Below the pieces are notes generated by a model. That model was not told where the DNA came from. It made no database searches and saw only the letters and a list, made by a program, of their open reading frames with translations. A DNA stretch of 34,235 bases, from contig JACNKC010000070.1 in the NCBI GenBank assembly GCA_014382245.1, positions 17,941-52,175 on the forward strand. Reading direction: 5' to 3'. Origin of the DNA: Pseudomonadota bacterium. Lineage in GTDB: Bacteria > Desulfobacterota > Binatia > UBA1149. The translations under genes were made by a program, and so were the position numbers. Numbering within the stretch: position 1 is the stretch's first letter; every line of letters begins with the position of its first letter. This document shows positions 2,188 through 23,143 of this stretch, piece by piece.

Positions 2188-4329
2188 ATGTCACGTTATG
2201 TTGTAGCCTGCGACGCGGGCGGGACGATGACCGATGTCATCATCGTCGATGAAGAAGGACGCAGTGTCATAGGAAAGGCGCCCACTTCGCCGCAGGACGA
2301 GAGCATCGGCTACATGGAGTCCTTCTGGGAAGCCCTGGAGTTCATGGGCATAGACCGTGAACAGGGTGCGCAGTTCGGAGGGCAGGTCGAGACCGCCATC
2401 TACACCGGCACCTCGATGCTCAACACGGTGATCAACCTGAGCGGCTACCGTACCGGTCTGCTCGTCACTCGCGGGTTTGAAGACGTCATCGCCCAGGGCC
2501 GCGGTTCGCAGACTTTTATCAACGCCCAGTGGACCGAGATCACGCACATGCAGTACCGCAAGCACCGCACGCCGCTGGTGCCGCGCAGCCTGGCCCGCGG
2601 CGTGACCGAGCGCGTGGACATGTTCGGGCAGGTGGTCATCCCGATGTACGAGCACGAGGTCGCTCAGGGCGTGCGCGAGCTGCTCGTGGACGAACAGGTA
2701 GAAGCCATCGCCATCGTATTTCTGCAGTCGTTCAACAATGCCACCCACGAACGGCGCGCAGCCGAGATCGCCCGCGAGGTCATGAAAGAGACCGGCCGTG
2801 AGGTGGTGCTCGAGCTGTCGAGCGAGGTAGCCCCCACCACCCGTGAGGTGTCGCGTGCCAACGCCACCGTGGTGCAGGCCTACGCGAGCGACCCCGCGCG
2901 CAAGCAGCTGCTGCGCATTGAAGAAGAAATGAAGGGCGTAGGTTACGAACACAGCCTCAAGACCGTGCTCGGCTATGGCGGCATCACCAACATACGCTAC
3001 CCGCGTCTGTTCGAGGCCGCCATGTCTGGTCCGGTGGGCGGACTGATGGGGGCAAAGTACCTGTCGAGCGTGATCGGTGAGGACAATATAGTGTGCTCCG
3101 ACGTTGGCGGCACCTCGTTTGACGCCGGTGCCATCACCGCAGGCGTTCTGCCCATCGACCGCGAGCCCGGTTTCCAGGACATGTACGTCAACGTGCCCAT
3201 GCTCGGCATCACTTCCATAGGCGCGGGCACGGGCACTTACATACGGCTTGATCCGCAGACCAATCGCATCAAGCTCGGCCCCGACTCGGCCGGCGGTACA
3301 CCGGGGCCGGCCTTCCTGGAGGCCGGCAACACCACGCCGACCATCAACGACGTCAACCTGTTGCTGGGCATACTCAACGAGGACAACTACCTGGGCGGTA
3401 AGCTGTCGGTAAACAAGCAGGTGTCTTACGATACCTTCAAGGAGAAGGTAGCCGACCCCCTGGGGCTGGACGTCTACGTGGCAGCAGAGACCTGTCTCGA
3501 GTTGCTCAACGTGATGATGCGCGAGCACCTGGTGCGCAGCCTCATGGTCGGGCACGACTTGAGAGAGTACGTGTTGCTGGGCTACGGCGGCGGTGGTCCC
3601 ATGCACCTGCTGGGCTACGCGGGCGATCATCCGTGGAAGGCGGTGGCAACCGTGCCGCACGCAGGCGGGTTCTCGGCCTGGGGCGGAGCCTGCATGGACT
3701 ACTCGCACCGACGCCATAAAAGCGTGCAGGCCCTGCTCACGCCCGAGCTGGACGATGCAACCCGGCTTGCCTACGTGGCGCCGGTGGCGCAGGCATGGCG
3801 CGATCTCGAGACCGAACTGCTCGAAGAGCTGCAGGAAGAGGGATTCGCCCGCGACCAGATCACTCTCAACCAGGTGGCCTACGTGCGCTACTTTGGTCAG
3901 CTCGAGGATGTGGAGGTCGACTCGCCGGTGACCACGCTCGAGAACCTCGACGATCTCGGCCAGCTCATAACTGCGTTCGAGGGCCTGTACACGAAGATGT
4001 TTACGCTGGCAGCAAAGCCCGACGTGGGCAGCTACCTGATCACCGAGGTCTGTGTAACGGCCAAGGTGGCCACCGTTAAGCCGCAACTGCGGCGCCACGA
4101 GCTGGCTGACAAGAAACCCAGCAAGGAAGCCTTCAAGTTTACCCGGCCCGTGTTCCAGGGTGGCGAGTGGAACGACGCCGACATATGGCGCATGGAGTCA
4201 CTCGTGCCGGGCAACGAGATCGAGGGCCTGGCGGTCATCGAGGCATCGAACACCACGCTGTTCGTTCCCCGCGAATGGAAACTGCGTATTGACGAGCACG
4301 ACATCTACTGGCTCACCCGCGCCGAGTAG
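2188..4329 (+). CDS. Acetone-carboxylase-type ketone carboxylase, beta subunit (HyuA/OplA superfamily)
   Basis: At 713 residues this matches the length of acetone carboxylase beta subunits (about 717). The N-terminus shows the ASKHA phosphate loop VACDAGGTMTDVIIVDEEG, with the DAGGTMTD form typical of acetone and acetophenone carboxylases; hydantoinases usually read DxGGTFTD. Further family segments are IYTGTSMLNTVI (residues 71-82), LLVTRGFEDVI, the second phosphate loop CSDVGGTSFDAGAI (about 305-318), and LGYGGGGPMH (about 466-475). In the known enzymes this subunit uses ATP to phosphorylate the ketone enol and bicarbonate before carboxylation on the alpha subunit, in the cytoplasm. A strong AAGGAAGGAG ribosome site precedes the ATG. 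Oddly, no alpha or gamma gene follows; these lie at 20366-23143. Acetone as the substrate is not established; the family also acts on acetophenone and other ketones. Confidence 0.88.
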   Translation: MSRYVVACDAGGTMTDVIIVDEEGRSVIGKAPTSPQDESIGYMESFWEALEFMGIDREQGAQFGGQVETAIYTGTSMLNTVINLSGYRTGLLVTRGFEDVIAQGRGSQTFINAQWTEITHMQYRKHRTPLVPRSLARGVTERVDMFGQVVIPMYEHEVAQGVRELLVDEQVEAIAIVFLQSFNNATHERRAAEIAREVMKETGREVVLELSSEVAPTTREVSRANATVVQAYASDPARKQLLRIEEEMKGVGYEHSLKTVLGYGGITNIRYPRLFEAAMSGPVGGLMGAKYLSSVIGEDNIVCSDVGGTSFDAGAITAGVLPIDREPGFQDMYVNVPMLGITSIGAGTGTYIRLDPQTNRIKLGPDSAGGTPGPAFLEAGNTTPTINDVNLLLGILNEDNYLGGKLSVNKQVSYDTFKEKVADPLGLDVYVAAETCLELLNVMMREHLVRSLMVGHDLREYVLLGYGGGGPMHLLGYAGDHPWKAVATVPHAGGFSAWGGACMDYSHRRHKSVQALLTPELDDATRLAYVAPVAQAWRDLETELLEELQEEGFARDQITLNQVAYVRYFGQLEDVEVDSPVTTLENLDDLGQLITAFEGLYTKMFTLAAKPDVGSYLITEVCVTAKVATVKPQLRRHELADKKPSKEAFKFTRPVFQGGEWNDADIWRMESLVPGNEIEGLAVIEASNTTLFVPREWKLRIDEHDIYWLTRAE

Positions 4330-4367
4330 GGGGAGGTGTCCAGCTCACTTTCGGTCGCCGGCCGATC

Positions 4368-5072
4368 CTAGGCCGCGTAACGGTCGATGGTTATAGCGTG
4401 GCGGACGTGGCGCAGCAGCTGCGACAGGCCGGGGCCCTCGCGGCGTACCGAGACGCCCTCGTGGGCAAGCTCGAGAATGGGGTAGGATCCGCACTCTCCC
4501 TTTGCTGCTTCACCGGTGACTAATAGTCCCACGCCGCGGCTCCTGGCGAATTCGAGAGCCCGTTGCTCGTCGACGATAGAGCCCAGTGGATCTCCACTGA
4601 TGTTGCAACTGGTGGCAAGCGGCGCGGTGAAGTGCTTGCCCGCCCACATCCCGGGCTCCGCGCTGTGATCAAAGGCAGCTTCAATTTCCTTGACCATCTC
4701 GCGGTGTATGCCGTTGAGCATCAGGGCCTGGTGGGTGCCATCGCGGACGGTGGTGGATTGGAAACCGGGGTGGGCGAAGGGAAATCGCAGTATGACGTCG
4801 GACATGCCCGAGATGGCTTCGGACAAGTGGAATCCATCGGGGAGCCTGTCGTGGTCCAGGCTCTGCCATAAGCGCGCGAGGTCGCCTATCGTGGCGCTGT
4901 AGTTCTTGTTGGGTAGTCGTATCTTGAGCCTGTCGAGATGGCCGACTCCCTGGCTGGTCGGGGCGGCGATGAGTACGTATACCGGTGCCAGCTGGACGAC
5001 CACGGCGTTGACTCGTAACTCGTCAATGATCCTGCCGAACGCGCTTCGGTCGGTGATATCTATGGTTTTCAT
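4368..5072 (-). CDS. YrdC/Sua5-fold protein, divergent
   Basis: A 234-residue protein starting at the ATG of MKTIDITDRS; longer frames run into non-coding sequence, and GGGGAG lies a short distance upstream. It resembles the YrdC domain that makes threonylcarbamoyl-AMP for tRNA t6A: APTSQGVG aligns with the PTETVYGLG region, LKIRLPNKNYSATIGDL with the KxRP..KPL nucleotide-binding stretch, and PLATSCNISGDPLGSIVDE with the PLxSTSANLSG motif. The end, KGECGSYPILELAHEGVSVR, matches the conserved PSTVVDL..G..ILR tail. Several positions differ from housekeeping TsaC (SCNISG for SANLSG), so this may be a paralogue with another carbamoyl-type or regulatory role. It lies 206 bases downstream of the RND pump gene on the same strand and converges with the carboxylase beta gene. 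Confidence 0.62.
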   Translation of the reverse strand: MKTIDITDRSAFGRIIDELRVNAVVVQLAPVYVLIAAPTSQGVGHLDRLKIRLPNKNYSATIGDLARLWQSLDHDRLPDGFHLSEAISGMSDVILRFPFAHPGFQSTTVRDGTHQALMLNGIHREMVKEIEAAFDHSAEPGMWAGKHFTAPLATSCNISGDPLGSIVDEQRALEFARSRGVGLLVTGEAAKGECGSYPILELAHEGVSVRREGPGLSQLLRHVRHAITIDRYAA

Positions 5073-5249
5073 GGCCTGTTTTTCTCCCCGCGGACAGCCT
5101 GATTCAGCAACAGCCGTGCCAGCGTGAAAGAGCAGAAAAACAGCCTGAAAAGGGGGTGGCCGCCGCGGCTGTAAAGAAAGGTTGGCGCCTGCCGGGGGCT
5201 GAGCGCTAAGCCTGGTTGCGAGCGGCTTCAGGGCGCGCCGATCCAGGCA

Positions 5250-5278
5250 GGGCAGGGCAGGGCTGCCGGGGGGGGGGG
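5250..5278 (+). repeat. G-quadruplex-type motif with an 11-G run
   Basis: Four G tracts on the + strand (GGG at 5250, 5255 and 5260, then eleven Gs at 5268-5278) have loops of 2, 2 and 5 bases and fit the canonical quadruplex pattern. The run ends right against the stop codon of the RND gene, which is read on the other strand, so the transcript there carries the C-rich complement. The rest of 5073-5278 shows nothing else clear. Confidence 0.55.
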
Positions 5279-8200
5279 TCAGTCGTGTGTGTAGTCGCTG
5301 AAGTTCACGTTGAAAAAAAGCGCGTACAGGACGGGCACGATACACAGCGTGAGCATGGTGGCGAATATCAGCCCCGCCATGATAGAGATCGCCAGCGGTT
5401 CCCACATCGGCCCGCCGCCAAGATACAGCGGCACAAGTCCGGTCACCGTGGTGGTGGTCGTGAGCAGGATCGGCCGCAGTCGCCGTTGCGCGGCCTCTAT
5501 CACCGCTGCCTGCGGCTCCCTGCCGAACTCGTCGAGTTCGGTCTGTATTCGATCGAGCAGGACGATGGCGTTGTTTATGACTATGCCCGACAACGATATT
5601 ATCCCGAGAAACGTCATGAACCCGAAGTAAGAGCGGGCTACAAGCAGGCCGACAACTACCCCGATTACGCCCAGTGGTATGGTCATCAGTATGATCAACG
5701 GTTTGCGGATCGAGTTGAACTGCATGACCAGGAGCAACACTATGAACATGCCCGCCAGCGGCAGGGTCGATACGAGCGCGGCGTTGGCCTCGCTCGAGCT
5801 TTCTTCTTCGCCACCAAATTCCCAGGAGTACCCGACCGGCCACTCGGCCGAGATTTCTTCAAGCCAGGGTCGCAGCTGGGTGTTCACGTCGTGGGCGGTG
5901 ATTCCACCGCTTACCCCGGATTCTACCGACACGGTTTTTCGGCGGTCTCGGCGTTGGATCTGTGCTGACTGCCAGGCGACTCGAACGTCGGCCACCTGCT
6001 TGAGCGGTACCGACACCCCGGTCGACTGCGAGTAGACATTGATGCCCTCGAGGTTGCCCATGTCGTTGCGATCCAGGGCCTCGGCCCTGAGCGTTATGGG
6101 GATTAAATCGTCGCCCTCGCGGAACTCTGTCGTTTCGAGTCCCGTCAGGTAGGTCTGCAGCGACACGGCTATGTCCTGGGAGCTGACGTGTGCGCGCGTG
6201 GCCCGCGCCTGGTCAATGTCGACGACCAGTTTCTTGGTTTCCGCTCCCCAGTCATCGTCGATGTTGTACGTGCCCGGGATGGACCGGAGCTTGTCCTTCA
6301 CCATGTCGACTATTTCAAAAATCCTGGTCTTGTCAGACCCCGCGATCCGTATTTCTACCGGCGGCCATGCCGGTGGTCCGAGCGCGAGCGGCCGCAGGAC
6401 GGCCTTCACGTCGGGGAAAGTCTTCTCGATGTGTGTCCCCATGACCTCCATCAGCCGGTCAACTTCCGGCCGGCTGGTCGCGTTCAAGAGGTAAACCCCG
6501 ATCTCGGCCCCGCGGTCAGGGGGCGCGTAGGTGAGTATGAAACGGGGCGGTGGCTCGCCGAGATAGGCGGTCCAGCTGGTGATCCCTTCCTGTCGTTCTT
6601 CGCCTGCGGCCAGTTCCGACCGGATGTACTCGTCCATGGCATCAGCCACCGCGACGGTCCTTTCGATGGGCGAACCGACGGGCATCTCCAGGTCGAGCGT
6701 AAAAGTCGGCCTGTCGTTGGGGGGAAAGAAAATTACAGGCACCAGCGAGAACGCGCGCAGGGCGACGACCAGCAGCAACACGGCGCCAACGACGACGACC
6801 AGCGGACGGCGCAACGCCGGCATGAGCAGTCCGCGGTATGTCTTGTAGAGAGTCGAGTCGAAGCTCTCGGGTTTCTCGCTGACTTTCACCTTGAGGAAAA
6901 GCGTGCACAGCATCGGCACCATGGTCAGTGCCAGTACCCACGAACACAGCAAGGTGATCGTCACGACCGAAAAAATGGGCCCGGTGTACTCGCCCGTAGA
7001 GTTGGGCGTTATGAATATGGGTAAGAAGGCGGCGGCCGTCGTGAGAGACGAGGTAAGCAGCGGGATGGTCAATTCACCGGCCGCGTCTATCGCAGCCTGC
7101 CGGGCTGGCTTGCCCGCGCTCATCTGCGTCATCGTGCTCTCGGACATCACGATGGCGTTGTCGACCAGCATCCCGAGCGCGATGATGAGCGCGGCGAGCG
7201 ACATCTGGTCCAGGCCGATTCCCAGGAGGCCCATGACGGCGATGGCTGATACCATTGCCATCGGTACCAGCGAGGCGACGATCAGGCCGCTACGCAAGCC
7301 AAGGGTGATCAGCATGACCAAGGTAACCACGGCCACCGACTGGAGCAGGTTGACCTGGAACGCCGAAATTTTTTGCGAGACCGCCTCGGGCTGAAACTGC
7401 GCGACGGAGATTTCCAGCCCTAGCGGGTACTCGGGGGCGAGCCTATCGACGAGCCGGCTGATGTCTTCGCCCATGGTGATGATGTTGCCACCGTCGCTCA
7501 TCGAAACCGCCAGTCCCAGGCTCGGCACCCCGTTCGAACGCATCAAGCGCTGGGGAGGGTCGATGTAGCTCCTGTGGATGTCCGCCAGGTCTTCGAGGGC
7601 GACCAGGCCATCGGAGTCGGGCAGCTGCACTACCGCGCGGCGGATGTCGTCGACGGTTTCAAAGTTGCCCGTGGGCTCCAGCGTGATGGCCTCGAAGCGG
7701 TTGTAGACCTCTCCGCCCGACAGGACGATGTTCTGTTTTTTAAGTATGTCCTGGAGCTGGCTCGGCGAAAGGCCGTAGCGAGCGAGCCTGGCGTTGGAGA
7801 ACTCGACGAAAACCCTCTCGTCTTGTACGCCCACGATGTCGACCTTGGCCACGTCGGGGACGAACAGGAGTTCGTCGCGTACCTCGTCGGCAACATCCTT
7901 GAGCCTGGCGTAGTCGAATCCCTCACCGGTGAGGGTGAGGATCACCCCGTACACGTCGCCGTATTCGTCGTTAACGTAGGGGCCGTGCACGTTGCTGGGC
8001 AGGTCGCGCGCGGCTTCTTCCATCTTGCGGCGCAGGTTGTCCCAGATGGGCCGGATGTTGTCGAACTCGTCTCGTATGTCGACGTACACGATGGACACGC
8101 CGTTTTTCGATACGCTGCGGACCTCGTCGAGTTCGGGGATGCGCTGGACCTTTTCCTCAATCTTGTCGGTGACGAGTTGCTCAACGCGGTCGGGGCTGGC

Positions 8201-8359
8201 CCCGGGAAAGTACGCGGTCACCACGGCCGTCCGGATGGTAAACCCGGGATCCTCGGCGCGGGGCATACTGTTGTAAGTCGAAATCCCGGCGAACACGGTG
8301 AGCACGAGGGCAACCGTGGTGATGCGGTTCTTCTCGATAGCGATCTTGGCTATGTTCAC
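5279..8359 (-). CDS. RND-family efflux pump, inner-membrane transporter
   Basis: At 1026 residues this is full length for the AcrB-like RND family, which exports drugs, lipids or metabolites using the proton gradient. The layout is standard: a first membrane helix (about residues 13-28), a large periplasmic porter loop, a membrane block around 335-490 including LIIALGMLVDNAIVMSES, a second porter loop, and a final helix block (about 850-1015). In membrane helix 4 the proton-relay pair reads Asp400-Asn401, where AcrB has two Asp residues; one-Asp versions are common in other RND branches. The start is GTG at 8359, five bases after the adaptor stop. Together with the fusion lipoprotein and TolC-like gene it makes a complete tripartite pump. 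The substrate cannot be told from sequence. Confidence 0.93.
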   Translation of the reverse strand: MNIAKIAIEKNRITTVALVLTVFAGISTYNSMPRAEDPGFTIRTAVVTAYFPGASPDRVEQLVTDKIEEKVQRIPELDEVRSVSKNGVSIVYVDIRDEFDNIRPIWDNLRRKMEEAARDLPSNVHGPYVNDEYGDVYGVILTLTGEGFDYARLKDVADEVRDELLFVPDVAKVDIVGVQDERVFVEFSNARLARYGLSPSQLQDILKKQNIVLSGGEVYNRFEAITLEPTGNFETVDDIRRAVVQLPDSDGLVALEDLADIHRSYIDPPQRLMRSNGVPSLGLAVSMSDGGNIITMGEDISRLVDRLAPEYPLGLEISVAQFQPEAVSQKISAFQVNLLQSVAVVTLVMLITLGLRSGLIVASLVPMAMVSAIAVMGLLGIGLDQMSLAALIIALGMLVDNAIVMSESTMTQMSAGKPARQAAIDAAGELTIPLLTSSLTTAAAFLPIFITPNSTGEYTGPIFSVVTITLLCSWVLALTMVPMLCTLFLKVKVSEKPESFDSTLYKTYRGLLMPALRRPLVVVVGAVLLLVVALRAFSLVPVIFFPPNDRPTFTLDLEMPVGSPIERTVAVADAMDEYIRSELAAGEERQEGITSWTAYLGEPPPRFILTYAPPDRGAEIGVYLLNATSRPEVDRLMEVMGTHIEKTFPDVKAVLRPLALGPPAWPPVEIRIAGSDKTRIFEIVDMVKDKLRSIPGTYNIDDDWGAETKKLVVDIDQARATRAHVSSQDIAVSLQTYLTGLETTEFREGDDLIPITLRAEALDRNDMGNLEGINVYSQSTGVSVPLKQVADVRVAWQSAQIQRRDRRKTVSVESGVSGGITAHDVNTQLRPWLEEISAEWPVGYSWEFGGEEESSSEANAALVSTLPLAGMFIVLLLVMQFNSIRKPLIILMTIPLGVIGVVVGLLVARSYFGFMTFLGIISLSGIVINNAIVLLDRIQTELDEFGREPQAAVIEAAQRRLRPILLTTTTTVTGLVPLYLGGGPMWEPLAISIMAGLIFATMLTLCIVPVLYALFFNVNFSDYTHD

Positions 8360-8364
8360 GGTTT

Positions 8365-9459
8365 CTAGAGGTCAGTGCGCAGCACTCGGACCTTCATTCC
8401 TCCGCGTATCCTGGGCAAGCCGGCACCGGCGATTATCTCGCCACCGCTGAGCCCGCTGATGATTTCTATGCCGTTGGCGGTCAGCTCTCCTATCGTTACC
8501 CCGACCCTGCTCGTGGTCGCGGTGCCGTCTTCGCCGGATTCAAGCACGTACACGAAGTGTCCCTCCCTGTCGTGGCCCACCGCGTATGCCGGCACGACCA
8601 GTCGCCCGTTGGACCCGGTAGAAAAACGAAAATCAACCTTGGCCGCCATGCCCGCGCGCAGCCGGGAGTCGCGATCGTCGAGCCGGACGGTTACCGGGTA
8701 GGTCGCTCCGCCCTGCGTGGCGGCGACGCCGACCTCGGTTACCTCGGCCCCGACAACCTCGCCGGGTATGGCGTCGAATCGTACCTCGACACGGTCCTCC
8801 CTGCGTATGGGCGAGATCAGGCTCTCCGGCACCACAATTTTTACTTCGGGCCGTTCCCCGTAAACGGCTATCGCCACCGGGTCACCCGACTTGACGTTCT
8901 CATTGTCGGAACGGATCACCTGGGTGACCGCCATGTGCTGCGGGGCGAGCAGGGTCGTATACCCGAGCTGTTGCTTGGCCAGGGCCAGGCCCTGCTCGAG
9001 CGATCGAACCGTAGCCTTGCGGGATTCAGCCTGGGCTCGGGCTGCGTCGAGGTCGGTCAGCGACACGCTCTGCTCCTCGTACAGGTCGCTCATGCGGGTA
9101 TAGTTGGCGCGCGCGTTTCTTTCCTCGGCCTTCGCCTGTGTCAGCGATGCCTGCGCCTCGCGTGTCTTGAGTTCGAAGTCGGTACGGTCCAGCACGGCCA
9201 CGGTGTCGCCCTTTTCGAGTATGTCACCGACGTCGACGTTGACCTTGTCCAGCTGTCCGCTGACGCGAAAGCTCAATTCGACGGTGGTGTTGGCCTCTAC
9301 CGTCCCCGAGAAAGTCCGCACGCGGTCCACGCCGGGCTCGGACACGAGTATCGCTTCGACAGGCCTGGCCGGCCTCTCGGGGGGTGGCGGTGCATCGGTA
9401 CATGCGCTTGCGAGCACAACGAGGAGCAGGGTGGAAAGCGTCATCGGTCGAATGGGCAT
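8365..9459 (-). CDS. RND efflux membrane-fusion lipoprotein (periplasmic adaptor)
   Basis: This 364-residue adaptor begins with a lipoprotein signal peptide: hydrophobic LLLVVLASAC with the lipidated Cys at residue 20, then a Pro-rich spacer. The HlyD/AcrA architecture follows: beta-barrel/lipoyl half (VEANTTVELSFRVSGQLDKV, VDVGDILEKGDTVAVLD), an alpha-helical hairpin (about 95-165, rich in Ala, Glu and Gln), the second lipoyl half (YTTLLAPQHMAV), a beta-barrel domain (PEVKIVVPESLISPI; GATYPVTVRLDDRDSRLRAGM) and a membrane-proximal domain. It joins the inner-membrane pump to the outer-membrane channel. The start overlaps the upstream stop as TGATG and the stop is five bases before the RND start, so all three are co-translated. 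LAPQHMAV replaces the usual LRAPFDG. Confidence 0.92.
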   Translation of the reverse strand: MPIRPMTLSTLLLVVLASACTDAPPPPERPARPVEAILVSEPGVDRVRTFSGTVEANTTVELSFRVSGQLDKVNVDVGDILEKGDTVAVLDRTDFELKTREAQASLTQAKAEERNARANYTRMSDLYEEQSVSLTDLDAARAQAESRKATVRSLEQGLALAKQQLGYTTLLAPQHMAVTQVIRSDNENVKSGDPVAIAVYGERPEVKIVVPESLISPIRREDRVEVRFDAIPGEVVGAEVTEVGVAATQGGATYPVTVRLDDRDSRLRAGMAAKVDFRFSTGSNGRLVVPAYAVGHDREGHFVYVLESGEDGTATTSRVGVTIGELTANGIEIISGLSGGEIIAGAGLPRIRGGMKVRVLRTDL

Positions 9460-12562: not shown

Positions 12563-12624
12563 GGGCGGGTGCCCAGATTACTAGGCCGCTTACCTGCTTA
12601 TGTCGAGCCCCGATGCGGTCGTCA

Positions 12625-15030: not shown

Positions 15031-15113
15031 CGATGACTGGACGCTAACGTCGTCCCAGGCGGTCTTCAGATCTCATCGCTGCCCTGGGTAAGCCCGCCCG
15101 GTAAATCGGCAAG

Positions 15114-15731: not shown

Positions 15732-15846
15732 ATCGATTCCTCCCTTGCCCAGTCACACGGATTTGTAGGCTGTTTTTCACCACCAGTCGAATTATCCAAT
15801 GAACATCGGCTGACCGTGCGTATTAAGGCTGCGCACATGGCTCCAA

Positions 15847-15969
15847 TTGTCAGGTTGCTACCTGGTCTGCTGGCAGAATGCGTCGTGCCAGAATGTGCCC
15901 TTCCGCCCGACGACCACTATCACCTGCTCCACTACTTCGACCACCACCACTACGACCACGGCACCGGTC
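15847..15969 (+). pseudogene. Remnant of Cys/Thr-rich secreted protein gene (3' part)
   Basis: The frame MSGCYLVCWQNASCQNVPF then TTTITCSTTSTTTTTTTAP repeats, with changes, the C-terminus of the protein ending at 16891 (IGCYLNCWNTASCETGQF, then TSTITCTTTITTTTTTMPP). Cys positions and the Thr tract are shared. Upstream sequence (15732-15846) shows no match to the N-terminal part and no signal peptide, so only the tail is left. It then runs straight into the HD remnant on the opposite strand. Confidence 0.5.
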
Positions 15970-16035
15970 GCGGATATTACGGTCCAGGCCGAGGTGATGG
16001 AAAAAATAGTAACCCTGGAAGATGCCGTGGTGCTC
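15958..16035 (-). pseudogene. Remnant of an HD-domain gene (residues about 119-142)
   Basis: Read on the minus strand this encodes EHHGIFQGYYFFHHLGLDRN then IRDRCR, nearly the same as the intact HD protein at 15114-15731 (HHGIFQGYYFFHHLDLDRDM). At DNA level 15979-16044 and 15323-15387 agree at roughly 80 percent of positions by eye. No homology continues on either side, so it is a fragment of a duplicated and decayed gene. Most differences are synonymous, so it was once under selection as protein. Confidence 0.6.
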
Positions 16036-16129
16036 GCCTACCCCGTCAGGGTAGCTTGTAGACCGCTTACCGGTCCCAGTCTCACTTCACACTGGACTTT
16101 GCCTTTTTCGGCGTGCTACCGTTCCGGCC

Positions 16130-16891
16130 ATGAGGCTGCTTGGCTCGTTAGTACTCTCGATATTGGTGATCGCTGGGCCCACCCCGGCAGAAGGCGGTAT
16201 AGAGTGCGGCTTGGTACCGGTGGATCCTGGCAACGTTATCGAACGGGACAGTTTTTTCGTTCGCGTTTTCAGGAGTAACCTGGACATCGCGCGAAAGTGT
16301 ATGGGGGTGAGGGATGAGAGTGCGAGCGAGTGTTTCAGCGGGGGCGATCCGGGCCGGAACCACGGGAGCGTGCCCCTGTTGGACCAGCTGTTCGGCCTGG
16401 ACTTCGATGGGGTCCTGGCCTCCGAGAGCGGCCTTCGGAGTCGGTGCCAGCGAACGATCGCTAAGCGCGCCATGCGTGTTGCCGCCAGGCAAATACGCGC
16501 GGATGCTTCCTGCCGAAAAGTGGGGGTAACCGATGGAAGCCTGGAGGTATGCTGAGACAAGCGTGACTGCGTGGCGGTAACAGGCAATGCACGTCTTGTA
16601 AAAGCCAGGGCCAGGCTGAAGAGCCGGAGCGATTTCTGCGCGGCGAAGTTTAACCTGCGCGGGTTGTTCCCGGGTGATTGCCTGGAGATCGACGAGGCAA
16701 ACGAAGTCGGCTTCGGGGATTGTCTTGGGAACCTGGCCCAGTGCAGGGTTTGCAGTGTCCTGACGATAGGTTGCTACCTGAATTGTTGGAATACCGCGTC
16801 GTGCGAGACGGGGCAGTTCGGATCGACATCAACGATCACCTGCACGACTACCATCACGACGACGACTACCACGATGCCGCCCGGCGGCTAG
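16130..16891 (+). pseudogene. Cys/Thr-rich secreted protein gene with one in-frame TGA
   Basis: One frame of 254 codons is interrupted only by TGA at 16553-16555. The first part has a signal peptide (MRLLGSLVLSILVIAGPTPA), then Cys residues and CQRTIAKRAMRVAARQI. The second part continues the same family pattern after the stop: LVKARARLKSRSDFCAAKF, CLGNLAQCRVCSVL, GCYLNCWNTASC and a poly-Thr tail ending at TAG. Secreted proteins with helical CQxxIxK repeats, a CxxC segment and a Thr-rich tail are, to my recollection, frequent in deltaproteobacterial and Binatota-type genomes; function unknown. Both halves keep family features, so the stop is either recent or read through. A hairpin directly after TGA (16557-16599) allows the alternative that TGA is recoded; see findings. 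If not recoded, the first half would be a 141-residue secreted product. Confidence 0.55.
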
Positions 16892-16931
16892 GCACCGCGC
16901 AACCTGTGGACCAGTGGTTTTTATTGCTGTC

Positions 16932-16991
16932 CTACAGCGGGCCGCAGACGAAGATGGGGATGTCGCGGCTGGTTAACTTGCGGTAGTCAGC
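16932..16991 (-). pseudogene. Remnant of Ddn-type nitroreductase gene (C-terminal 19 codons)
   Basis: The minus strand reads ADYRKLTSRDIPIFVCGPL and a stop, against ADYRKRTARDIPIFVCSPV and a stop in the intact nitroreductase at 19697-20185. DNA identity is high across about 45 bases. Homology ends upstream next to the hydrolase gene end at 17001, so the rest was deleted or replaced. Confidence 0.65.
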
Positions 16992-17000
16992 AGTTGTTTC

Positions 17001-17735
17001 TCAACGCGAATTGGAAGCAAGGAAGCTGGCTACCCGGGCGCTCGTTGACTCCAGGTACTCGGCTTCTTTCCAGAACTCCACGAATTCCGCGTTGCAGGTT
17101 ATGTCGGCGACTTCGCGCGAGATCGATTCCGGGTGATATATATCGTGCCCGCAGAAGACCAGCAGGGGGGTGGTGCAGGCGGCGACGAAATCACGCGCTA
17201 CGTTGAACAGGAAGTCACCGCCGTACATCGCGTGCCTGAAAACCTGCCAGGTCTTTTCAGTGACCGCCGGTTGTTTCCCCGCGATTTCTTTCGCCCAGTC
17301 GTCAAACATTTCAAAAAAAACCCCGCGGTTATTCTCGGGCCCGGTTTCGTCGAGGCCTATGGGTTGAAACAGTACGGCCGACGCCACGCGTTCGGGCGCG
17401 GCCTCGATGAGCCCCATGCCGAATGACCCGCCGATGCACATGCCCAGGACGCTGAAGCGGTTCACGCCCAGGTGGTCGAGCAGGGCGAGCTGGTCGGCGG
17501 TATAGACCTGCCAGGAGTCGGTAGGCAGTACCGGCGCCGTTGAGCGTCCGGCGTTGCGTTGGTCCATGGCGATCACGCGAAAGTGGTCGGCCAGTGAAGC
17601 CACCGGGTTCCAGGGCTGCGTTTCCCACATCTCAAGCGAGGAGCGCATGCCGCCGGGTGCAAGCAGCAGCAGCGGGAAACCCTCGCCGTGTTCCTCGTAG
17701 TAGATCTCGGTTTCGTTGTTTTTGAATACGGGCAT
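17001..17735 (-). CDS. Alpha/beta-hydrolase with Cys nucleophile
   Basis: A 244-residue cytoplasmic protein; the ATG at 17735 (MPVFKNNETEIYYEEHGEG) has AAGGA eight bases upstream and is the natural start, although the frame is open further. The fold is shown by PLLLLAPGGM (oxyanion region), FRVIAMDQRNAGRS, and a nucleophile elbow GMCIGGSFG with Cys100 where Ser is usual, as in dienelactone hydrolases. The acid is probably Asp198 in LLVFCGHDIYHP. The usual C-terminal His is not seen; the matching stretch is FWKEAEYLESTSARVASFL, so His201 or another residue may serve, or the protein may not be a standard hydrolase. It is divergent from the DUF1295 gene. Substrate unknown. Confidence 0.75.
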   Translation of the reverse strand: MPVFKNNETEIYYEEHGEGFPLLLLAPGGMRSSLEMWETQPWNPVASLADHFRVIAMDQRNAGRSTAPVLPTDSWQVYTADQLALLDHLGVNRFSVLGMCIGGSFGMGLIEAAPERVASAVLFQPIGLDETGPENNRGVFFEMFDDWAKEIAGKQPAVTEKTWQVFRHAMYGGDFLFNVARDFVAACTTPLLVFCGHDIYHPESISREVADITCNAEFVEFWKEAEYLESTSARVASFLASNSR

Positions 17736-17848
17736 TTCGTGTTCCTTGCCGTTGCCGGGCGCCGATTGCCTATACGAGACACCGCGCTGCAACCACCCGG
17801 CGTCGGGCAGGCGTTGTGTCAGCCCGCGCGAGGGGGCAGAGCTGGGGC

Positions 17849-18736
17849 ATGAACCGACCCGCTTTCACCCAGGATCGCTTTGCTTCCATGGCCTACGTCG
17901 TCCTCGTTTACCAGCTGGTGATCGGGCTGGCCTGGTGGACCTTCGGCGCCTTTGACCTTGCCCCGTTGTGGGCCATGAGTGCGGGCCTGTTCGCCTCGGC
18001 GCTGCTCTGCTTCGTGGCCATGCTGCCGGTCAACAACGGCTCGGTGTTTGACCCCTGGTGGAGCGTGTTGCCTCCATTCGCCGCGCTTTATTTTCTCACG
18101 CTTGCGGCGGGCGAGGGGCTGAGCGACCGACAGCTGGCCGTGCTCGTGGTGGTCGTGGCGTGGTCGCTGCGGCTCACCCTGAACTGGTTCCGCGACTATC
18201 CGGGCCTGACACACGAGGATTTCCGCTACGTTGATCTTTACGAGAAGACGCCGCTACCACGGTGGGCCGTACGGTTGTTTCTCGTTGATCTCTTTCCCGC
18301 CTTGCAGGTGGTGCTCGGCTGCCTGCCGCTTTACCCGGCGCTTGTGCTGGGCGGCGGCGAGTTCGTTGCGCTGGACCTGCTGGCCCTGGTCGTTGGCCTG
18401 GTCGCCGTGGCCCTGGAACTGGTCGCCGACGAACAGATGCGCAATTTCAAACGCAGGCGCGCCGAGGGCGAAAACATGTCGAGCGGACTGTGGCGTTACT
18501 CGCGCCACCCCAACTACCTTGGCGAGATACTGTTCTGGGTGTCGCTGTTCTTGTTCGGGCTGGCGGCCGCCCCCGGGTGGTGGTGGACCGGGGTAGGCGC
18601 AGTGGCCATGATACTGATGTTCGTCTTTGCGAGCGTTCCCATGATGGACGAGCGCAGCATGGCGCGCCGACCGGGCTACGCCGACTACGCCCGGCGCACC
18701 TCGGCGCTCTTGCCCTGGCCGCCGCGGCGGGATTGA
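17849..18736 (+). CDS. DUF1295 membrane protein (steroid-5-alpha-reductase/ICMT-like fold)
   Basis: A 295-residue protein with about seven hydrophobic segments. The ATG at 17849 (MNRPAFTQDRF) is preferred; an earlier GTG at 17816 would add only a charged leader. Key motifs are FDPWWSVLP (about residue 68), TLNWFRDYPGLTHEDFRYV, and the C-terminal LWRYSRHPNYLGEILFWVSL with GYADYARRTSALLPWPPR. The RHPNYLGE segment is shared by DUF1295, steroid 5-alpha reductases and isoprenylcysteine methyltransferases and binds the cofactor in characterised relatives. It is therefore likely a membrane NADPH-dependent reductase or methyltransferase acting on a lipid or steroid-like compound; the exact reaction is unknown. 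It converges with the EamA transporter gene, seven bases away. Confidence 0.82.
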   Translation: MNRPAFTQDRFASMAYVVLVYQLVIGLAWWTFGAFDLAPLWAMSAGLFASALLCFVAMLPVNNGSVFDPWWSVLPPFAALYFLTLAAGEGLSDRQLAVLVVVVAWSLRLTLNWFRDYPGLTHEDFRYVDLYEKTPLPRWAVRLFLVDLFPALQVVLGCLPLYPALVLGGGEFVALDLLALVVGLVAVALELVADEQMRNFKRRRAEGENMSSGLWRYSRHPNYLGEILFWVSLFLFGLAAAPGWWWTGVGAVAMILMFVFASVPMMDERSMARRPGYADYARRTSALLPWPPRRD

Positions 18737-18742
18737 TCGGGC

Positions 18743-19654
18743 TCAGCTCTCGAGGATCAGTATAACGATACCGACAAGCATGACGGCCATGCCCGCCAGT
18801 TCGAGGCGGTTGCTCCGTTCGCGGAAGAATATCCACGAAGCTGCCATCGCGAAGAGAAGTTCCACCTGCCCGAGCGCGGTCACGTAGGCAACGTTCTGCA
18901 GTGTCATCGCGGTAAACCAGCCTACCGATGCCGCCGCGCCGCATATTCCTACCCACAGCGACGGTCGCCATGCCCGGCCCACCCTGCGAAGTTGCCCGGG
19001 CTCACGCAGCGCGAGGAACAGGGTCATTATCACGGCCTGGAACACTAATACGCAGGAAAGCGTGAACCCGGCGCGCAGGAACGCTCCCCCGTCGGATAGC
19101 AGAGAGAGTGAGGCTGCCCGGTACGAAACACCCGCCAGGGCGAACAGTGCGGCCGATAACATTCCCAGCCCGGCCCCTCGGTCCAGGAAAATGTTGCGCA
19201 GGGGGCGCCGGGTTACGTCCTGGCGGGAGACGGTGAGCAACAACACGCCCACGACCGACACGAGTATGCCGATCCCTGCCAGCTCTCCCACCGACTCCCC
19301 GAGAATGGCAACGCTGAACGCCGCAGCCTGCAGGGGCTCGGTCTTCCGGTAGGCGGTGCTCACGGCGAAGTTTCTAAACGAGAATGCGTGCAGCAGGGTG
19401 GCGGTGGCAAGCACCTGGCCGATTCCGCCCAGGGCTCCATAAAAAAAGAAGGTGCCGCCCGGCTTCGGCAGCGAGTGGTCGAGCCCGACCGTCAGCACCA
19501 GTAGGTAAACGAGGGCGAACGGTGCGCCAAAAGCGAAGCGGACGTAGGTCGCTCCCGTGTTGCTGAGTCTAGTCTTGAGATCCTTCTGCAGCGCCGAGCG
19601 AATGTTCTGCAGGAAGGCAGCCGCTACGGTTAACAGGATCCACGGTTCGGGCAT
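18743..19654 (-). CDS. EamA-family drug/metabolite transporter
   Basis: A 303-residue inner-membrane protein with about ten predicted helices arranged as two EamA repeats (about 3-140 and 160-300). The first repeat has TYVRFAFGAPFALVYLLVL and AYRKTEPLQAAAFSVAILGE, the second VTALGQVELLFAMAASWIFF then RERSNRLELAGMAVMLVGIV, whose Glu/Gly positions match the EamA signature. DMT-superfamily members export small metabolites or drugs by proton exchange. The ATG at 19654 gives MPEPWILLTVAAAF, which starts in the first helix as is normal. The end is seven bases from the DUF1295 stop; the start is 42 bases downstream of the nitroreductase stop on the same strand, so the two may be co-transcribed. Substrate unknown. 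Confidence 0.85.
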   Translation of the reverse strand: MPEPWILLTVAAAFLQNIRSALQKDLKTRLSNTGATYVRFAFGAPFALVYLLVLTVGLDHSLPKPGGTFFFYGALGGIGQVLATATLLHAFSFRNFAVSTAYRKTEPLQAAAFSVAILGESVGELAGIGILVSVVGVLLLTVSRQDVTRRPLRNIFLDRGAGLGMLSAALFALAGVSYRAASLSLLSDGGAFLRAGFTLSCVLVFQAVIMTLFLALREPGQLRRVGRAWRPSLWVGICGAAASVGWFTAMTLQNVAYVTALGQVELLFAMAASWIFFRERSNRLELAGMAVMLVGIVILILES

Positions 19655-19696
19655 GAGGCAGGGGATGTTTTGTGGCAGGAGCCGGGCTCGCTCTTA

Positions 19697-20185
19697 CTAC
19701 ACCGGCGAGCATACGAAGATGGGAATGTCGCGGGCGGTTCGCTTGCGGTAGTCGGCGAAGGGCGCGTAGCAACCGTCGCACACCGGCCACATGGCGGGCT
19801 TTTCGTCGGCCTGGGCCAGGCGGGCCGTGTAGCTCTTGCGCAGGCCACGGTAAGTGATGTCGACGCCCGGGTTCTTGACGATGTTGTGATACCAGATGGG
19901 ATTCTTCGGCGCGCCGCCCAGCGATGCCACCAGCAAAACATCGTCTCCGTGCGGCACGTACATAAGCGGCACGGTCAGTCGGCGGCCGCTGCGGGCACCG
20001 GTCATGTCGACAAAGCAGACCTCGTCGCCGCCCAGGGTGTTGCCCAGGCGCGCGCCGGTCAGCCGGCTCAACATGACGTGCAGGCGGGTGATGATCTTGA
20101 GAATCCAGCGCGGCGGTGCGGCTCCCTTGTCCTGGAGTTTGCTGTCCGTGCTGGCAGTATCGGTGGTGCTGGCGGTGTCGCTCAT
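19697..20185 (-). CDS. Ddn-type (F420-dependent-like) nitroreductase family protein
   Basis: A 162-residue protein of the deazaflavin-dependent nitroreductase family. A polar Ser/Thr/Asp-rich leader (1-20) precedes the split-barrel domain: RLGNTLGGDEVCFVDMTGAR, RRLTVPLMYVPHGDDVLLVA, SLGGAPKNPIWYHNIVKNPG, and the ending DIPIFVCSPV. The GGAPKNPxWYHNxxxNP stretch is characteristic and lines the cofactor site. Characterised members use reduced F420 to reduce quinones or nitro compounds; whether this host makes F420 cannot be seen here, and some relatives use flavins or haem. A GGAGGA site eight bases before the ATG supports the start. It is divergent from the carboxylase alpha gene and could share its operator. 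A C-terminal remnant of a second copy lies at 16932-16991. Confidence 0.82.
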   Translation of the reverse strand: MSDTASTTDTASTDSKLQDKGAAPPRWILKIITRLHVMLSRLTGARLGNTLGGDEVCFVDMTGARSGRRLTVPLMYVPHGDDVLLVASLGGAPKNPIWYHNIVKNPGVDITYRGLRKSYTARLAQADEKPAMWPVCDGCYAPFADYRKRTARDIPIFVCSPV

Positions 20186-20281: not shown

Positions 20282-20291
20282 ACGCGGCAGG

Positions 20292-20305
20292 TAGAACGTG
20301 TTTCA
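20292..20305. promoter_or_regulatory. KstR-type palindromic operator TAGAACGTGTTTCA
   Basis: A full fit to TnnAACnnGTTnnA and one base different from the site at 2082-2095 upstream of the beta subunit. It lies 61 bases before the alpha-subunit start, between divergent genes, so it could also act on the nitroreductase. A TetR-family repressor that responds to an acyl-CoA or similar intermediate is the likely reader, by analogy with KstR. Confidence 0.6.
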
Positions 20306-20365
20306 CTTGCTCTCCTCCGGCAGCCGCGGGGAAGCAATTACGGCGGCACAACAGGAAATAAGACT

Positions 20366-22588
20366 ATGAGCGAAGACAAGGGCTTAAAGCTGAAAGAACA
20401 GCTCAGGGTCAACGACCGGGAGCTGGCCGATACGGGACATCTTTTCGGGCTTGAGAAGCTTGAGCGCAAGGAAAGCGACCCCGGCACCTACGAGGCCGTG
20501 TGGCACATACTATCTAATCTCTGTAACGCCGCGTGGTCGGTGGGCTGCAAGGTTTCCAGTTCGCCCATTGCCGCCGAGGGTGGCGACGCCCTGTGGGCGC
20601 TGCACACCCCCACCGGCGAGGCGGTGTGCGTGTCGCGTGGCATCACCGCCCACCCCGGTCTGCTGGCCGACATGATACGCAACTTCATCGAGCTCGACTA
20701 CGAAGACTACCCGGGCTTTCACCAGGGCGACATATTCGAAAACAACGATCCCCACTACGGCGGCATCCACGCGCCCGACTTCGACATGGCCATGCCGATC
20801 TTTTACGGCGACGAGCTGGTGGCCTGGACCAGCTGCGTGTCGCACGTGAGCGACTGTGGTTCGGTGACGCCGGGCTCCATCGGTTTTCTCAATCCCGATT
20901 GCTACTCCGACGGCCTTTGCATCGCCATGGAGAAGGTCGGCGAGGCCGACAAGTTCTACCCCTGGTACGACATGCGCATCAAGTCGCGCACGCGCACTCC
21001 CGACTGGGTGCTGGGCGACGCGCGCGGGCGTCTGGCCGGCTGCATCACGGTGCGCGAAAAACTCATCGAGGTCATCGACAAGTATGGGCTGGATTTCTTT
21101 CGCGACGCTTGCAAGGAGTACGTCGAAGACAGTCGCCGCTACGCCGTTGGCCGCGTCAGGACCCAGGCCGTGCCCGGGCGCATACGCAAGTCGCAGTTCA
21201 AAGACCTTGCCATGAAGGGCAAGCGCGTGCTGCTGGGCAAGCAGGACATCGACTGCCTGTTCAACCTGCCCATGGAGCTCGAGATCAAGGCCGACGCCAA
21301 CGTGGCCATTTCACTCCGGGGGGCGAGTGGCACGGTGCCGTTTGGAGAGAACATAAGCCCCACCGCGCTCAAGTCGGGCCTTCTCAACGGCTACTCGCAC
21401 ATAGTTGGCTTTGACATGTTCAACTCGGGGCCGTCGGCTTCCTGGGAAGTTGAAACCCCGCCCGGGGGTTCCTGGGCAAACCCGTTCGAGAAGGACTTCT
21501 CGGCCTCGTCGGGAGTGGCCTGGGCGCCGGCCGTGATGTGGATGAGCAGCCTTTACGAGGTTTTCGGGCGGTTGTACCACATGCGCGGTTTCATAGAGGA
21601 GATGGCCGCCGGCGCAGCCACCACCATGACGGCCGAGTTCGCGGGCATTAACCAGACCGGCCAGTACGTGGCCGGCCTCACCCTTGAGCAGGCCTGCAAC
21701 GGCTCACCCGCGCGCGGCTTTACCGATGGTGAGAACAGCGCCTGGTGCATCTACACGCCCAACGCCGACTTCGGCAACGCCGAGATCGCCGAGCTCTACT
21801 ACCCCGTCCTCTACCTGGGCCGCAACCTCGAGCCCGACTCGGCGGGCTACGGACGATTTCGCGGCGGCCTGGGCCACACCGCGGTGTGGATGGTGCACAA
21901 TACTCCGAGCATCGAGTACCAGTGCGGTTGCGCCGGTATACGAAGCAAGACGATCTCGAACCACGGCATGTACGGTGCTTACCCGGCGGTGCCCGACCGC
22001 CCGGCCTACGCCCACGACACCAACGTGAAGGAACTCATCGCCGAGCAGAAACCACTGGTACACGAACGCGGTGACCCCGAGGACCAGCAGATCACCAACA
22101 ACGTCAAGGCGCGCGAACTCGAAGACGCGGCCATCGCTCCCTTCGTGACACCCGAGCCCTTGCAGGACTACGACATCATCGTTCACCCGGTTTCTGGCGC
22201 CCAGTCGATGGGCGACCCCCTGGACCGCGCCCCGGCGGCCGTGGAAGACGATCTCAACAAGGGCTGGGTGCGCGCTGGCGTGGCCGAGCGTGTGCACGGG
22301 GTGGTGGCGGTGAGCAACGGTCGCTGGACGGTGGACGAGAAGGCCACCGCCGAAAAACGCAAGACCCTACGCGACGAACGCAAGGGCAAGGCCGTACCGT
22401 TTCGGCAGTGGTGGGACGAGGAACGCAAGCGCGTAGAGGCCTGCGAAAACATGGATGCGGCCGTCATCGAGATGTGGCGCAGCTCGATGGAGTTGTCGCC
22501 GGGCTACGGCGACGAGCTGCGCGCCTTCTGGCGGCTGCCCGAAGATTTTATTTTCGAGTTACCGGCAGCGGGCAAAGAGGAGAGCTGA
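20366..22588 (+). CDS. Acetone-carboxylase-type ketone carboxylase, alpha subunit (HyuB superfamily)
   Basis: The start is the ATG of MSEDKGLKLKEQL, with AGGAA upstream; the frame stays open to 19670 but that part covers the nitroreductase gene. The product has 740 residues, close to acetone carboxylase alpha subunits (about 776). The HyuB-type metal motif DPHYGGIHAPDF (about residues 129-140) supplies two His and one Asp ligands as in the Mn site of the known enzyme. Other conserved pieces are ISLRGASGTVPFGENISPTA, GFTDGENSAWCIYTPNADFG, and GYGRFRGGLGHTAVWMVH, the last matching the GxGxxRGGxG signature. This subunit carries out carboxylation of the phospho-enol with bound CO2 in the cytoplasm. 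Gamma follows three bases after the stop. The expected beta subunit is not here but at 2188-4329. Substrate unknown: acetone, acetophenone or a larger ketone. Confidence 0.9.
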   Translation: MSEDKGLKLKEQLRVNDRELADTGHLFGLEKLERKESDPGTYEAVWHILSNLCNAAWSVGCKVSSSPIAAEGGDALWALHTPTGEAVCVSRGITAHPGLLADMIRNFIELDYEDYPGFHQGDIFENNDPHYGGIHAPDFDMAMPIFYGDELVAWTSCVSHVSDCGSVTPGSIGFLNPDCYSDGLCIAMEKVGEADKFYPWYDMRIKSRTRTPDWVLGDARGRLAGCITVREKLIEVIDKYGLDFFRDACKEYVEDSRRYAVGRVRTQAVPGRIRKSQFKDLAMKGKRVLLGKQDIDCLFNLPMELEIKADANVAISLRGASGTVPFGENISPTALKSGLLNGYSHIVGFDMFNSGPSASWEVETPPGGSWANPFEKDFSASSGVAWAPAVMWMSSLYEVFGRLYHMRGFIEEMAAGAATTMTAEFAGINQTGQYVAGLTLEQACNGSPARGFTDGENSAWCIYTPNADFGNAEIAELYYPVLYLGRNLEPDSAGYGRFRGGLGHTAVWMVHNTPSIEYQCGCAGIRSKTISNHGMYGAYPAVPDRPAYAHDTNVKELIAEQKPLVHERGDPEDQQITNNVKARELEDAAIAPFVTPEPLQDYDIIVHPVSGAQSMGDPLDRAPAAVEDDLNKGWVRAGVAERVHGVVAVSNGRWTVDEKATAEKRKTLRDERKGKAVPFRQWWDEERKRVEACENMDAAVIEMWRSSMELSPGYGDELRAFWRLPEDFIFELPAAGKEES

Positions 22589-22591
22589 GCG

Positions 22592-23143
22592 ATGGCCGAG
22601 TTTCACAAGGAAGACATTGCGCGCTTGATGGACGGGGTGCTGCCCTGGCCGGCCGTGCAGGACATGCTCAAGAGCCCCAAGGATCTCGACCGTTTTGATA
22701 AGTACCTCGAGATAATGGCCGAGCGCGTACCCTGGGACGACACCATACTGCTGCCTCTTACGCCGCAGTTGATGATAGTGGCGCGCAAGGGCGAGCGCGT
22801 GGTCAAGTGCCTGTGCGGGCAGGAGTACGGCGACTACCGCGTTAACTGGAAGTTGTCGGCCCTGGTGCACGTGCGCGACAGCCAGCAGGCCCTCGACGAG
22901 ATCTACCGCGGTCGCGACGCGCTGGACGAGGCCTGGGTGCAACTGCGCGAGTACATCTGCCCGGGCTGCGGCAGTATGCTCGAGGTGGAGGCCGTGCCGC
23001 GTGGCTGCCCGCCCGACTTTGAATTCCTGCCCGACCTCGACACTTTCTACCGCGAGTGGTTGGGCCGCGAGTTGCCCGACAAGTGCGAGTACGAGGACCG
23101 TACGCTGGCCGTAGTGGCCGAGTGGTCCTCGGAAGGAGAGTAA
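22592..23143 (+). CDS. Acetone-carboxylase-type ketone carboxylase, gamma subunit
   Basis: A 183-residue protein, near the 168-residue length of known gamma subunits. It carries two Cys pairs for zinc: VKCLCGQEYGDYRVNWK (about residues 71-87) and YICPGCGSMLEVE (about 127-139). The C-terminal DFEFLPDLDTFYREWLGREL stretch is also typical. The gamma subunit closes and stabilises the heterohexamer near the alpha subunit. It starts three bases after alpha, behind AGAGGAGAG, and its stop is seven bases from the next GTG. Its tight pairing with alpha supports a true ketone carboxylase rather than a hydantoinase or oxoprolinase, which lack this subunit. Confidence 0.88.
   Translation: MAEFHKEDIARLMDGVLPWPAVQDMLKSPKDLDRFDKYLEIMAERVPWDDTILLPLTPQLMIVARKGERVVKCLCGQEYGDYRVNWKLSALVHVRDSQQALDEIYRGRDALDEAWVQLREYICPGCGSMLEVEAVPRGCPPDFEFLPDLDTFYREWLGRELPDKCEYEDRTLAVVAEWSSEGE

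Follow-up and report, generated by a model that had tools for sequence, protein, structure and literature searches.

The genes of described acetone carboxylases (Acx) are contiguous in the order acxA-acxB-acxC, their HydB-type subunit has ~720 amino acids (aa) and their gamma subunit is ~50 aa longer than that of acetophenone carboxylases (Apc), and hydantoinases are described as having no gamma subunit (PMC5214803; here and below, published work is cited for the part of each source that was available). We analysed a 34,235-nucleotide stretch of an uncultured Binatia genome (G000, GCA_014382245.1; 2.94 Mb in 129 contigs, estimated 95% complete), positions 17941-52175 of contig C105 (JACNKC010000070.1), which we refer to as the window, and which carries genes for all three subunits in two separate places. 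Subunits are named as in the Xanthobacter acetone carboxylase, with a HydA-type beta and a HydB-type alpha; the names alpha and beta are reversed in PMC5214803. With good confidence we propose that the beta, alpha and gamma genes encode a single enzyme of acetone-carboxylase type, from an uncharacterised subfamily, whose operon has been split and whose halves would be co-expressed through the same operator.

All three frames are open without internal stops (the program-made list of open reading frames begins the alpha frame further upstream, at a TTG), and the layout reported in the initial annotation, beta alone with alpha and gamma together ~16 kb away, was confirmed, with 16,036 bases between beta and alpha. 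The best solved-structure matches are acetone carboxylase subunits in each case (beta 1.8e-153, alpha 6.2e-103, gamma 1.8e-43), whilst matches to acetophenone carboxylase are weaker (4.6e-97, 6.8e-41 and 7.9e-7, respectively). Trees were built for all three subunits; that of beta places the window within the acetone-carboxylase branch (support 100/100), inside a distinct subfamily clade of 19 rows (100/100). The Acx reference rows in this tree are four plasmid clusters, none biochemically characterised, of which three come with gamma annotated; a paper names one of those three acxABC. The HydA-type, HydB-type and gamma subunits that Acx membership requires are all present, and the lengths fit (740 aa for alpha and 183 aa for gamma, the Apc chain 5l9w_C having 129 aa). 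The earlier proposal of a true ketone carboxylase, drawn from a DAGGTMTD motif in beta and the presence of gamma, held in both observations and in its acetone-type form; the acetophenone type was rejected, as the matches of all three subunits are weaker and there is no second HydA partner. The product is therefore a predicted acetone-carboxylase-type enzyme of an uncharacterised subfamily, and we call it Acx-type, not acetone carboxylase, because the contiguous acxA-acxB-acxC order is not found in the window or in the sister genome G002, a derived change that concerns gene order and not the proteins themselves.

The G000 genome carries three HydA genes, three HydB genes and one gamma gene. Because the other two HydA/HydB pairs (on contigs C46 and C29) each consist of adjoining members, with HydA proteins that fall on long branches outside the acetone-carboxylase branch, and because there is a single gamma, the window beta is best paired with the window alpha and gamma; a different alpha or beta of this genome as the true partner, the finding that would have undone the initial annotation, was sought and rejected. 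Relatives encode the subunits together. Scanning named genomes yielded 71 loci, of which 47 had a best beta match of at least 60% identity (hereafter subfamily loci; L160 is counted among them on a match of only 36 residues) and 24 were less similar. Gene order could be judged in 39 of the 47, the other eight being cut off inside beta, and in 20 of the 24; each locus was cut 8 kb after beta, and genes further downstream may be hidden. The third genome of the window's genus (G001) was left out, its contig beginning inside alpha, with runs of N in alpha and gamma and no beta found, and G077 was left out of the order count, since its beta and alpha-gamma are on separate contigs and beta ends 213 bases from a contig end. 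Alpha follows beta directly in 39/39 evaluable subfamily loci, with gaps of 5-194 bp, and adjoins beta in 19 of the 20 less similar loci (in front of it in L130 and L131), the sole exception being L149 with a gap of ~1.6 kb. For example, a genome of the same order as the window (G011, locus L093) has the unbroken row xdhC, mobA, coxG, beta, alpha, gamma, caiB1, caiB2, caiB3, in which the beta and alpha frames overlap by one base.

Around this pair the subfamily loci vary. Gamma was detected in 29 of the 32 with room for it, all three caiB genes lie downstream of beta in 22/30 evaluable loci (one has two, seven have none), coxG lies ≤300 bp upstream of beta in 17/47, and mobA and xdhC are each upstream of beta in 6 of the 44 loci with >2.5 kb there, xdhC taking the same place in the intact clusters L091 and L093. 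Because gamma is common and the presence of caiB, coxG, mobA and xdhC varies, the core of the cluster is beta-alpha-gamma and the remaining genes are variable. The three loci in which gamma was not found (L092, L102 and L125) are actinobacterial, with molybdenum hydroxylase genes directly after alpha; gamma may be dispensable or lost there. The more distant L130 has two tandem alpha genes between gamma and beta (L130:3229-7660).

Among the genomes examined the split occurs only in the window genome and in G002, a different species of the same genus with ~94% DNA identity over aligned stretches, and the junctions are the same in both. The closest relative outside the genus, L091, in a record titled Myxococcales, has an intact cluster with 85% identity in both beta and alpha, and the fork uniting it with the split pair is supported at 91/92 in the beta tree and 99 in the alpha tree. 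Because relatives keep the intact order and L091 is nearest to both beta and alpha, the split arrangement is derived from an intact operon, of which the two loci are halves, as first supposed. Distances of beta and alpha also co-vary (r 0.96 over 33 rows, 0.91 over the 17 subfamily rows), evidence that bears on the family rather more than on the window.

The two halves share an operator, TAGAACGTGTTGCA before beta and TAGAACGTGTTTCA before alpha. These are the only window matches at ≤2 mismatches and both are exact (shuffled windows expect 0.28, with two or more in 4/100), and the G000 genome has six such sites at ≤1 mismatch, one of them before ipdABC-like genes, vs. none for the reversed pattern. 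Both fit TnnAACnnGTTnnA, the operator consensus of KstR in mycobacteria (PMC1995591). They are the only sites of this type in the window (0.18 expected, two or more in 3/100 shuffles), and the genome holds 21 (reversed control: 10), of which 10 have the core AACGTGTT in common in a count by eye. A chance origin of the operators was rejected on the window shuffles and reversed-pattern genome controls. The matching operators of the initial annotation are thus real, and its claim that co-regulation was kept gains support from their conservation in the sister genome; both halves carry the same KstR-like operator and are probably expressed together. The 44 named loci scanned held 10 KstR-type sites, seven of them ~160-240 bp before beta, and most loci had none. 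The F420-reductase-like gene, which is divergent, may have brought the operator before alpha with it, although homologues of that gene outside the genus have a KstR-type site at only 1/28 loci, hundreds of bases from the gene.

The DNA between the halves is absent from all 39 evaluable subfamily loci. In the comparison with G002, the left stretch of homology stops at 4344, 15 bases past the beta stop, and the right stretch runs through alpha; the efflux genes, the HD protein, the alpha/beta hydrolase, DUF1295, EamA and the F420-reductase-like gene are common to both blocks. G002 has ~5 kb including a GH9 gene directly after beta (L072:13268-18388), GH9 being found only there and GH106 only in the window, and window positions 15757-17058 have no alignment in G002. 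The block is thus a putative site of gene turnover that gains or loses cargo, with glycosidases at different positions, and because the glycosidase differs between the two genomes GH106 need not belong to the original insert. Of the initial proposal that an efflux and glycosidase block broke the operon, the broken operon and the efflux and membrane genes shared with G002 stand; that the glycosidase formed a single block with them is not shown. The block outer-membrane protein has a relative in G003 with 64% identity over its C-terminal half, other matches listed outside the genus reaching 27-35% (21 genomes searched), and the 18 kb around the G003 relative held no match to other proteins of the query set. 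Synonymous divergence from G002 is 0.025-0.077 in DUF1295, EamA and the F420-reductase-like gene (17816-20185) vs. 0.12-0.27 in beta, alpha, gamma and caiB, as if these three genes had been recently exchanged.

Insertion is the favoured account of how the halves were parted. An inversion or translocation that placed alpha-gamma-caiB beside other genes is unlikely: the block is not one clean element, given the exchanged glycosidases and the unaligned segment, and the window has no tRNA and no integrase or transposase among its 26 scanned proteins (some small frames lay outside the scan), but the halves keep their order and orientation on one contig, with coxG still before beta and caiB still after gamma. 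That the split is an assembly artefact has next to no probability, for although the genome is a draft in many contigs, G002 has both junctions on one contig. The split could also have inactivated the enzyme and left its genes as relics, operon contiguity having been lost, yet this is very improbable given the frames free of internal stops, the operators kept in both species and the low ratios of non-synonymous to synonymous substitution (dN/dS) between them, 0.05-0.11 (beta 0.049, alpha 0.111, gamma 0.053); among the block genes the ratio is 0.12-0.27 for five shared genes, 0.067 for HD and 0.32 for the F420-reductase-like gene. The low ratios of beta, alpha and gamma show purifying selection in both halves, and both look functional after the split.

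A different function for an intact enzyme would be that of an ATP-dependent amidohydrolase of hydantoinase type. It belongs to the same superfamily, NCBIfam matches beta and alpha, always at scores far short of cut-off, to caprolactamase among others, though also to acetophenone carboxylase, and gamma is undetected in three relatives; against this, the window has the gamma subunit that hydantoinases are described as lacking, its subunit lengths are of acetone-carboxylase type and beta sits in that branch of the tree, and we regard such an activity as quite improbable. Several observations do weigh against a single, co-expressed carboxylase. The draft state of the assembly means that an unseen extra copy may exist; the gamma tree does not unite the window with L091, the nearest by path being L093, and puts the split pair on a long stem (0.37 vs. 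0.13 in beta and alpha); the neighbouring RND gene has a dN/dS of 0.124, close to the 0.111 of alpha; compared with the palindrome TAGAACGTGTTCTA, one half-site of each operator is perfect and the other imperfect; a regulator, sought with a single query, the TetR protein beside the G092 cluster, was not identified (no match at E 1e-10 in G000 or G002); and one metal ligand, Glu89 of the Xanthobacter enzyme, is replaced by Asp, as it is in 17/17 subfamily rows and 1/13 other rows. We nevertheless consider one Acx-type enzyme with a split operon to be the probable reading.

In the Xanthobacter enzyme the metal ligands of the HydB-type subunit are His150, Asp153, His175 and Glu89, the last being a ligand in the AMP-bound state (PMC5543143). 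The window alpha keeps the first three as H135, D138 and H160, and has D74 at the position of Glu89. Cysteines 73, 75, 123 and 126 of gamma are kept in 15/15 subfamily rows and also in the Xanthobacter and M. extorquens proteins; two of the three plasmid Acx gammas (L223 and L224) are without three of these four, and so the cysteines are not universal. In 9/13 less similar alpha rows the equivalent of His175 is Met, which may reflect a genuine difference in the metal site or an alignment error. We infer that the subunits would assemble into one complex with carboxylase activity, in which beta would use ATP to activate a ketone and bicarbonate and the carbon-carbon bond would form at the alpha metal to give a beta-keto acid; the family III CoA-transferases encoded after gamma would convert this to a thioester, and thiolysis would follow. 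In the window's genus the operon, which some intact relatives have as xdhC-mobA-coxG-beta-alpha-gamma-caiB1-2-3, was broken after beta and before alpha; the simplest account is an insertion of efflux, membrane and other genes that now measures ~16 kb; the same KstR-like operator on each half would allow joint expression, and the subunits would meet after translation.

Table 1. Features of the window, in window positions (G002, sister genome; L081, a further locus)
Feature	Position	Strand	Remarks
XdhC-type maturation protein of molybdenum hydroxylase	21-719	+	PF13478
MobA-like nucleotidyltransferase	716-1390	+	PF12804
CoxG-like protein	1423-2046	+	PF06240
Operator TAGAACGTGTTGCA	2082-2095	+	92 bp before beta ATG; fits TnnAACnnGTTnnA of KstR; kept in G002
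beta, HydA-type ATP-binding subunit	2188-4329	+	713 aa; Hydant_A_N, Hydantoinase_A, Hydant_A_C (Pfam)
Intervening block between beta and alpha	4330-20185	.	absent in 39/39 evaluable subfamily loci
RND efflux	5279-8359		intervening block
Membrane fusion protein	8365-9459		intervening block
Outer-membrane protein	9459-12167		intervening block
GH106 segment	12569-15113	-	absent at that place in G002
GH106 glycosidase gene	12625-15030		intervening block
HD protein	15114-15731		intervening block
alpha/beta hydrolase	17001-17792		intervening block
DUF1295	17816-18736		intervening block
EamA	18743-19654		intervening block
F420-dependent reductase-like, divergent	19697-20185		similarity to PF04075 protein of L081
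Operator TAGAACGTGTTTCA	20292-20305	+	60 bp before alpha ATG; kept in G002
alpha, HydB-type metal-site subunit	20366-22588	+	740 aa; Hydantoinase_B (Pfam)
gamma	22592-23143	+	183 aa; Acetone_carb_G, PF08882
Family III CoA-transferase 1	23151-24371	+	
Family III CoA-transferase 2	24371-25594	+	
Family III CoA-transferase 3	25597-26817	+	

The genes that flank the halves (Table 1) point to a wider module. Each of the three CaiB proteins scores higher against CoA-transferases than against racemases, and a racemase role was rejected on the lower scores. The MobA-like protein presumably has a role in molybdenum cofactor. The only MoCoBD_1 match of the G000 genome lies at the head of contig C70 (L221:1106-7744), where genes for FAD, 2Fe-2S and molybdenum subunits run together with those for an amidohydrolase, a thiolase and a ChsH2-type protein; a KstR-type site stands 20 bp upstream of the first frame. 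The large subunit of this hydroxylase carries PYRGMGPP, and AYxCSFR, which we take to be the motif of form I CO dehydrogenase, was not found in it. In G002 the hydroxylase genes follow the window's last genes on one contig, where ~90 bases separate the stretches that align with the ends of C105 and C70; because this synteny joins the two ends, the C70 operon very likely lies just past the window end, ~8-9 kb after caiB3. Hydroxylase genes are downstream in 8/47 subfamily loci. Where caiB is missing and at least 500 bp follow gamma or alpha, they come directly next in seven of eight loci (L092, L102, L103, L104, L121, L125 and L159, all with actinobacterial titles; not L113), whereas among the 23 loci that have caiB and continue for ≥1.2 kb after it, L094 alone has them. 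This linkage offers a reason for xdhC, mobA and coxG in a carboxylase cluster; because it is strong without caiB but so rare with it, our confidence in the module as a whole is lowered.

The kind of substrate is hinted at by the other KstR-type sites of the genome, the neighbourhoods of part of which were looked at; most of those examined precede lipid- or steroid-type catabolic genes. On C24 the neighbours are two acyl-CoA dehydrogenases and an enoyl-CoA hydratase, on C115 they are acyl-CoA dehydrogenase, ChsH2-like and thiolase genes, and on C52 they are ChsH2-like genes and one of beta-lactamase fold; the C111 site adjoins an NMO-type gene, and of two sites on C70 one adjoins a hydratase and the other, at C70:41460, NMO-type and CoA-transferase III genes. 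On C68 the site adjoins an NMO-type gene and a CoA-transferase-like gene that matches 6co6 (1.8e-86) and 6con (7.6e-82), both presumably IpdA structures. This IpdA-like gene is followed by a FabK-like gene, and the acyl-CoA dehydrogenase after the ipd-like genes has as its best match 4x28, to which we ascribe a steroid role. IpdC has itself been described as FabK-like, and mycobacterial ipdAB are members of the KstR2 regulon (PMC5380842). In G000, G001, G002, G011 and G012 a KstR-type site lies ahead of ipdA, but 0/5 other IpdA loci inspected have one; G077, among these five, carries the subfamily. This putative KstR-like regulon of a Binatota genome (L168-L171, L241-L243), which includes ipdABC-like genes, acyl-CoA dehydrogenases and ChsH2/thiolase pairs, points to steroid catabolism in the phylum. 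Within the set of relatives' genomes, IpdA occurs in 7/7 that carry the subfamily (the window's included; G001 counted by its alpha, gamma and caiB pieces) vs. 16/138 others (Fisher 1.1e-6, uncorrected for relatedness), and the subfamily is absent from 16 of the 23 IpdA-bearing genomes. Judged by gene neighbourhood, the substrate is perhaps steroid-like.

Anaerobic ethylbenzene degradation runs from a molybdenum enzyme through alcohol and ketone to an ATP-dependent carboxylase, CoA activation and a thiolase (PMC4729919), and by analogy the genes here suggest oxygen-independent oxidation, carboxylation, CoA transfer and thiolysis, perhaps of a steroid-like ketone. Tentatively, and with more doubt than confidence, we propose a catabolic module, not described before, that would act on a steroid-like (or isoprenoid) ketone: a molybdenum hydroxylase of the xanthine dehydrogenase family would oxidise the substrate without O2, the Acx-like enzyme would carboxylate the ketone, the family III transferases would add CoA, and a thiolase with its ChsH2-type partner would cleave the carbon skeleton; in Binatota it would share the KstR-like operator with ipdABC-like genes, and in the Acidimicrobiia-type arrangement the carboxylase and hydroxylase genes lie end to end. 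As part of this proposal, the split operon shows that putative module parts can be distributed whilst one kind of operator is kept. Phytone and similar isoprenoid ketones were weighed as substrates, and among the papers listed by a literature search none concerned such an enzyme, judged by title or abstract start; acetone itself is a further candidate.

In its split operon the window shows a known enzyme type arranged in an unusual way; the subfamily and its putative module represent a new form of that type. In the literature searched, acetone carboxylase was not found together with Binatota, nor with molybdenum hydroxylase or the xanthine dehydrogenase family, nor were the latter two found together, and searches combining it with steroid or cholesterol degradation, or with steroid or Myxococcota, had no acetone carboxylase among their best matches (10 of 47 and 15 of 178, respectively). 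Binatota and steroid occur together in three papers; in the available part of one, PMC9531527, sponge Binatia are reported to carry genes for sterol biosynthesis, not degradation. The operon encodes what should be an obligate complex, and since a single genus has it in two pieces, each behind the same operator, two species are at hand in which to study how stoichiometry is maintained. By record titles, the subfamily spans uncultured Binatota, Myxococcota, Acidimicrobiia, Chloroflexi and Proteobacteria, and is linked in part to a molybdenum hydroxylase and, within the order to which the window belongs, to genes of steroid type. If the module is real, carbon skeletons would be broken by oxygen-independent oxidation and carboxylation, and no such steroid route turned up in the literature searched.

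Among described systems, the acetophenone carboxylase ApcABCDE and ethylbenzene pathway of Aromatoleum aromaticum share the pathway logic with the proposed module. However, ApcABCDE has a second HydA-type subunit (alpha'), absent from the window, the other two HydA proteins of the genome being paired with HydB elsewhere, and the window subunits are acetone-type; the ethylbenzene pathway uses ethylbenzene dehydrogenase and a benzoylacetate-CoA ligase, whereas here the molybdenum enzyme belongs to the xanthine dehydrogenase family and CoA-transferases take the place of the ligase. The mycobacterial KstR regulon is alike in its operator consensus before catabolic genes and unlike in that no KstR protein was identified here, only the G092 TetR having been sought, and in that ipdAB are there under KstR2. 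Three plasmid acx clusters have a sigma-54 regulator as neighbour, where the window has CoA-transferase and molybdenum-enzyme genes instead. Also close is AcxABC of Xanthobacter autotrophicus Py2 (5m45, 5svb): the window differs from it in its separate subfamily clade, the change of Glu89 to Asp and the split of the operon, and resembles it in having three subunits of matching types and lengths, in the beta-alpha-gamma order of its intact relatives and in keeping His150, Asp153 and His175.

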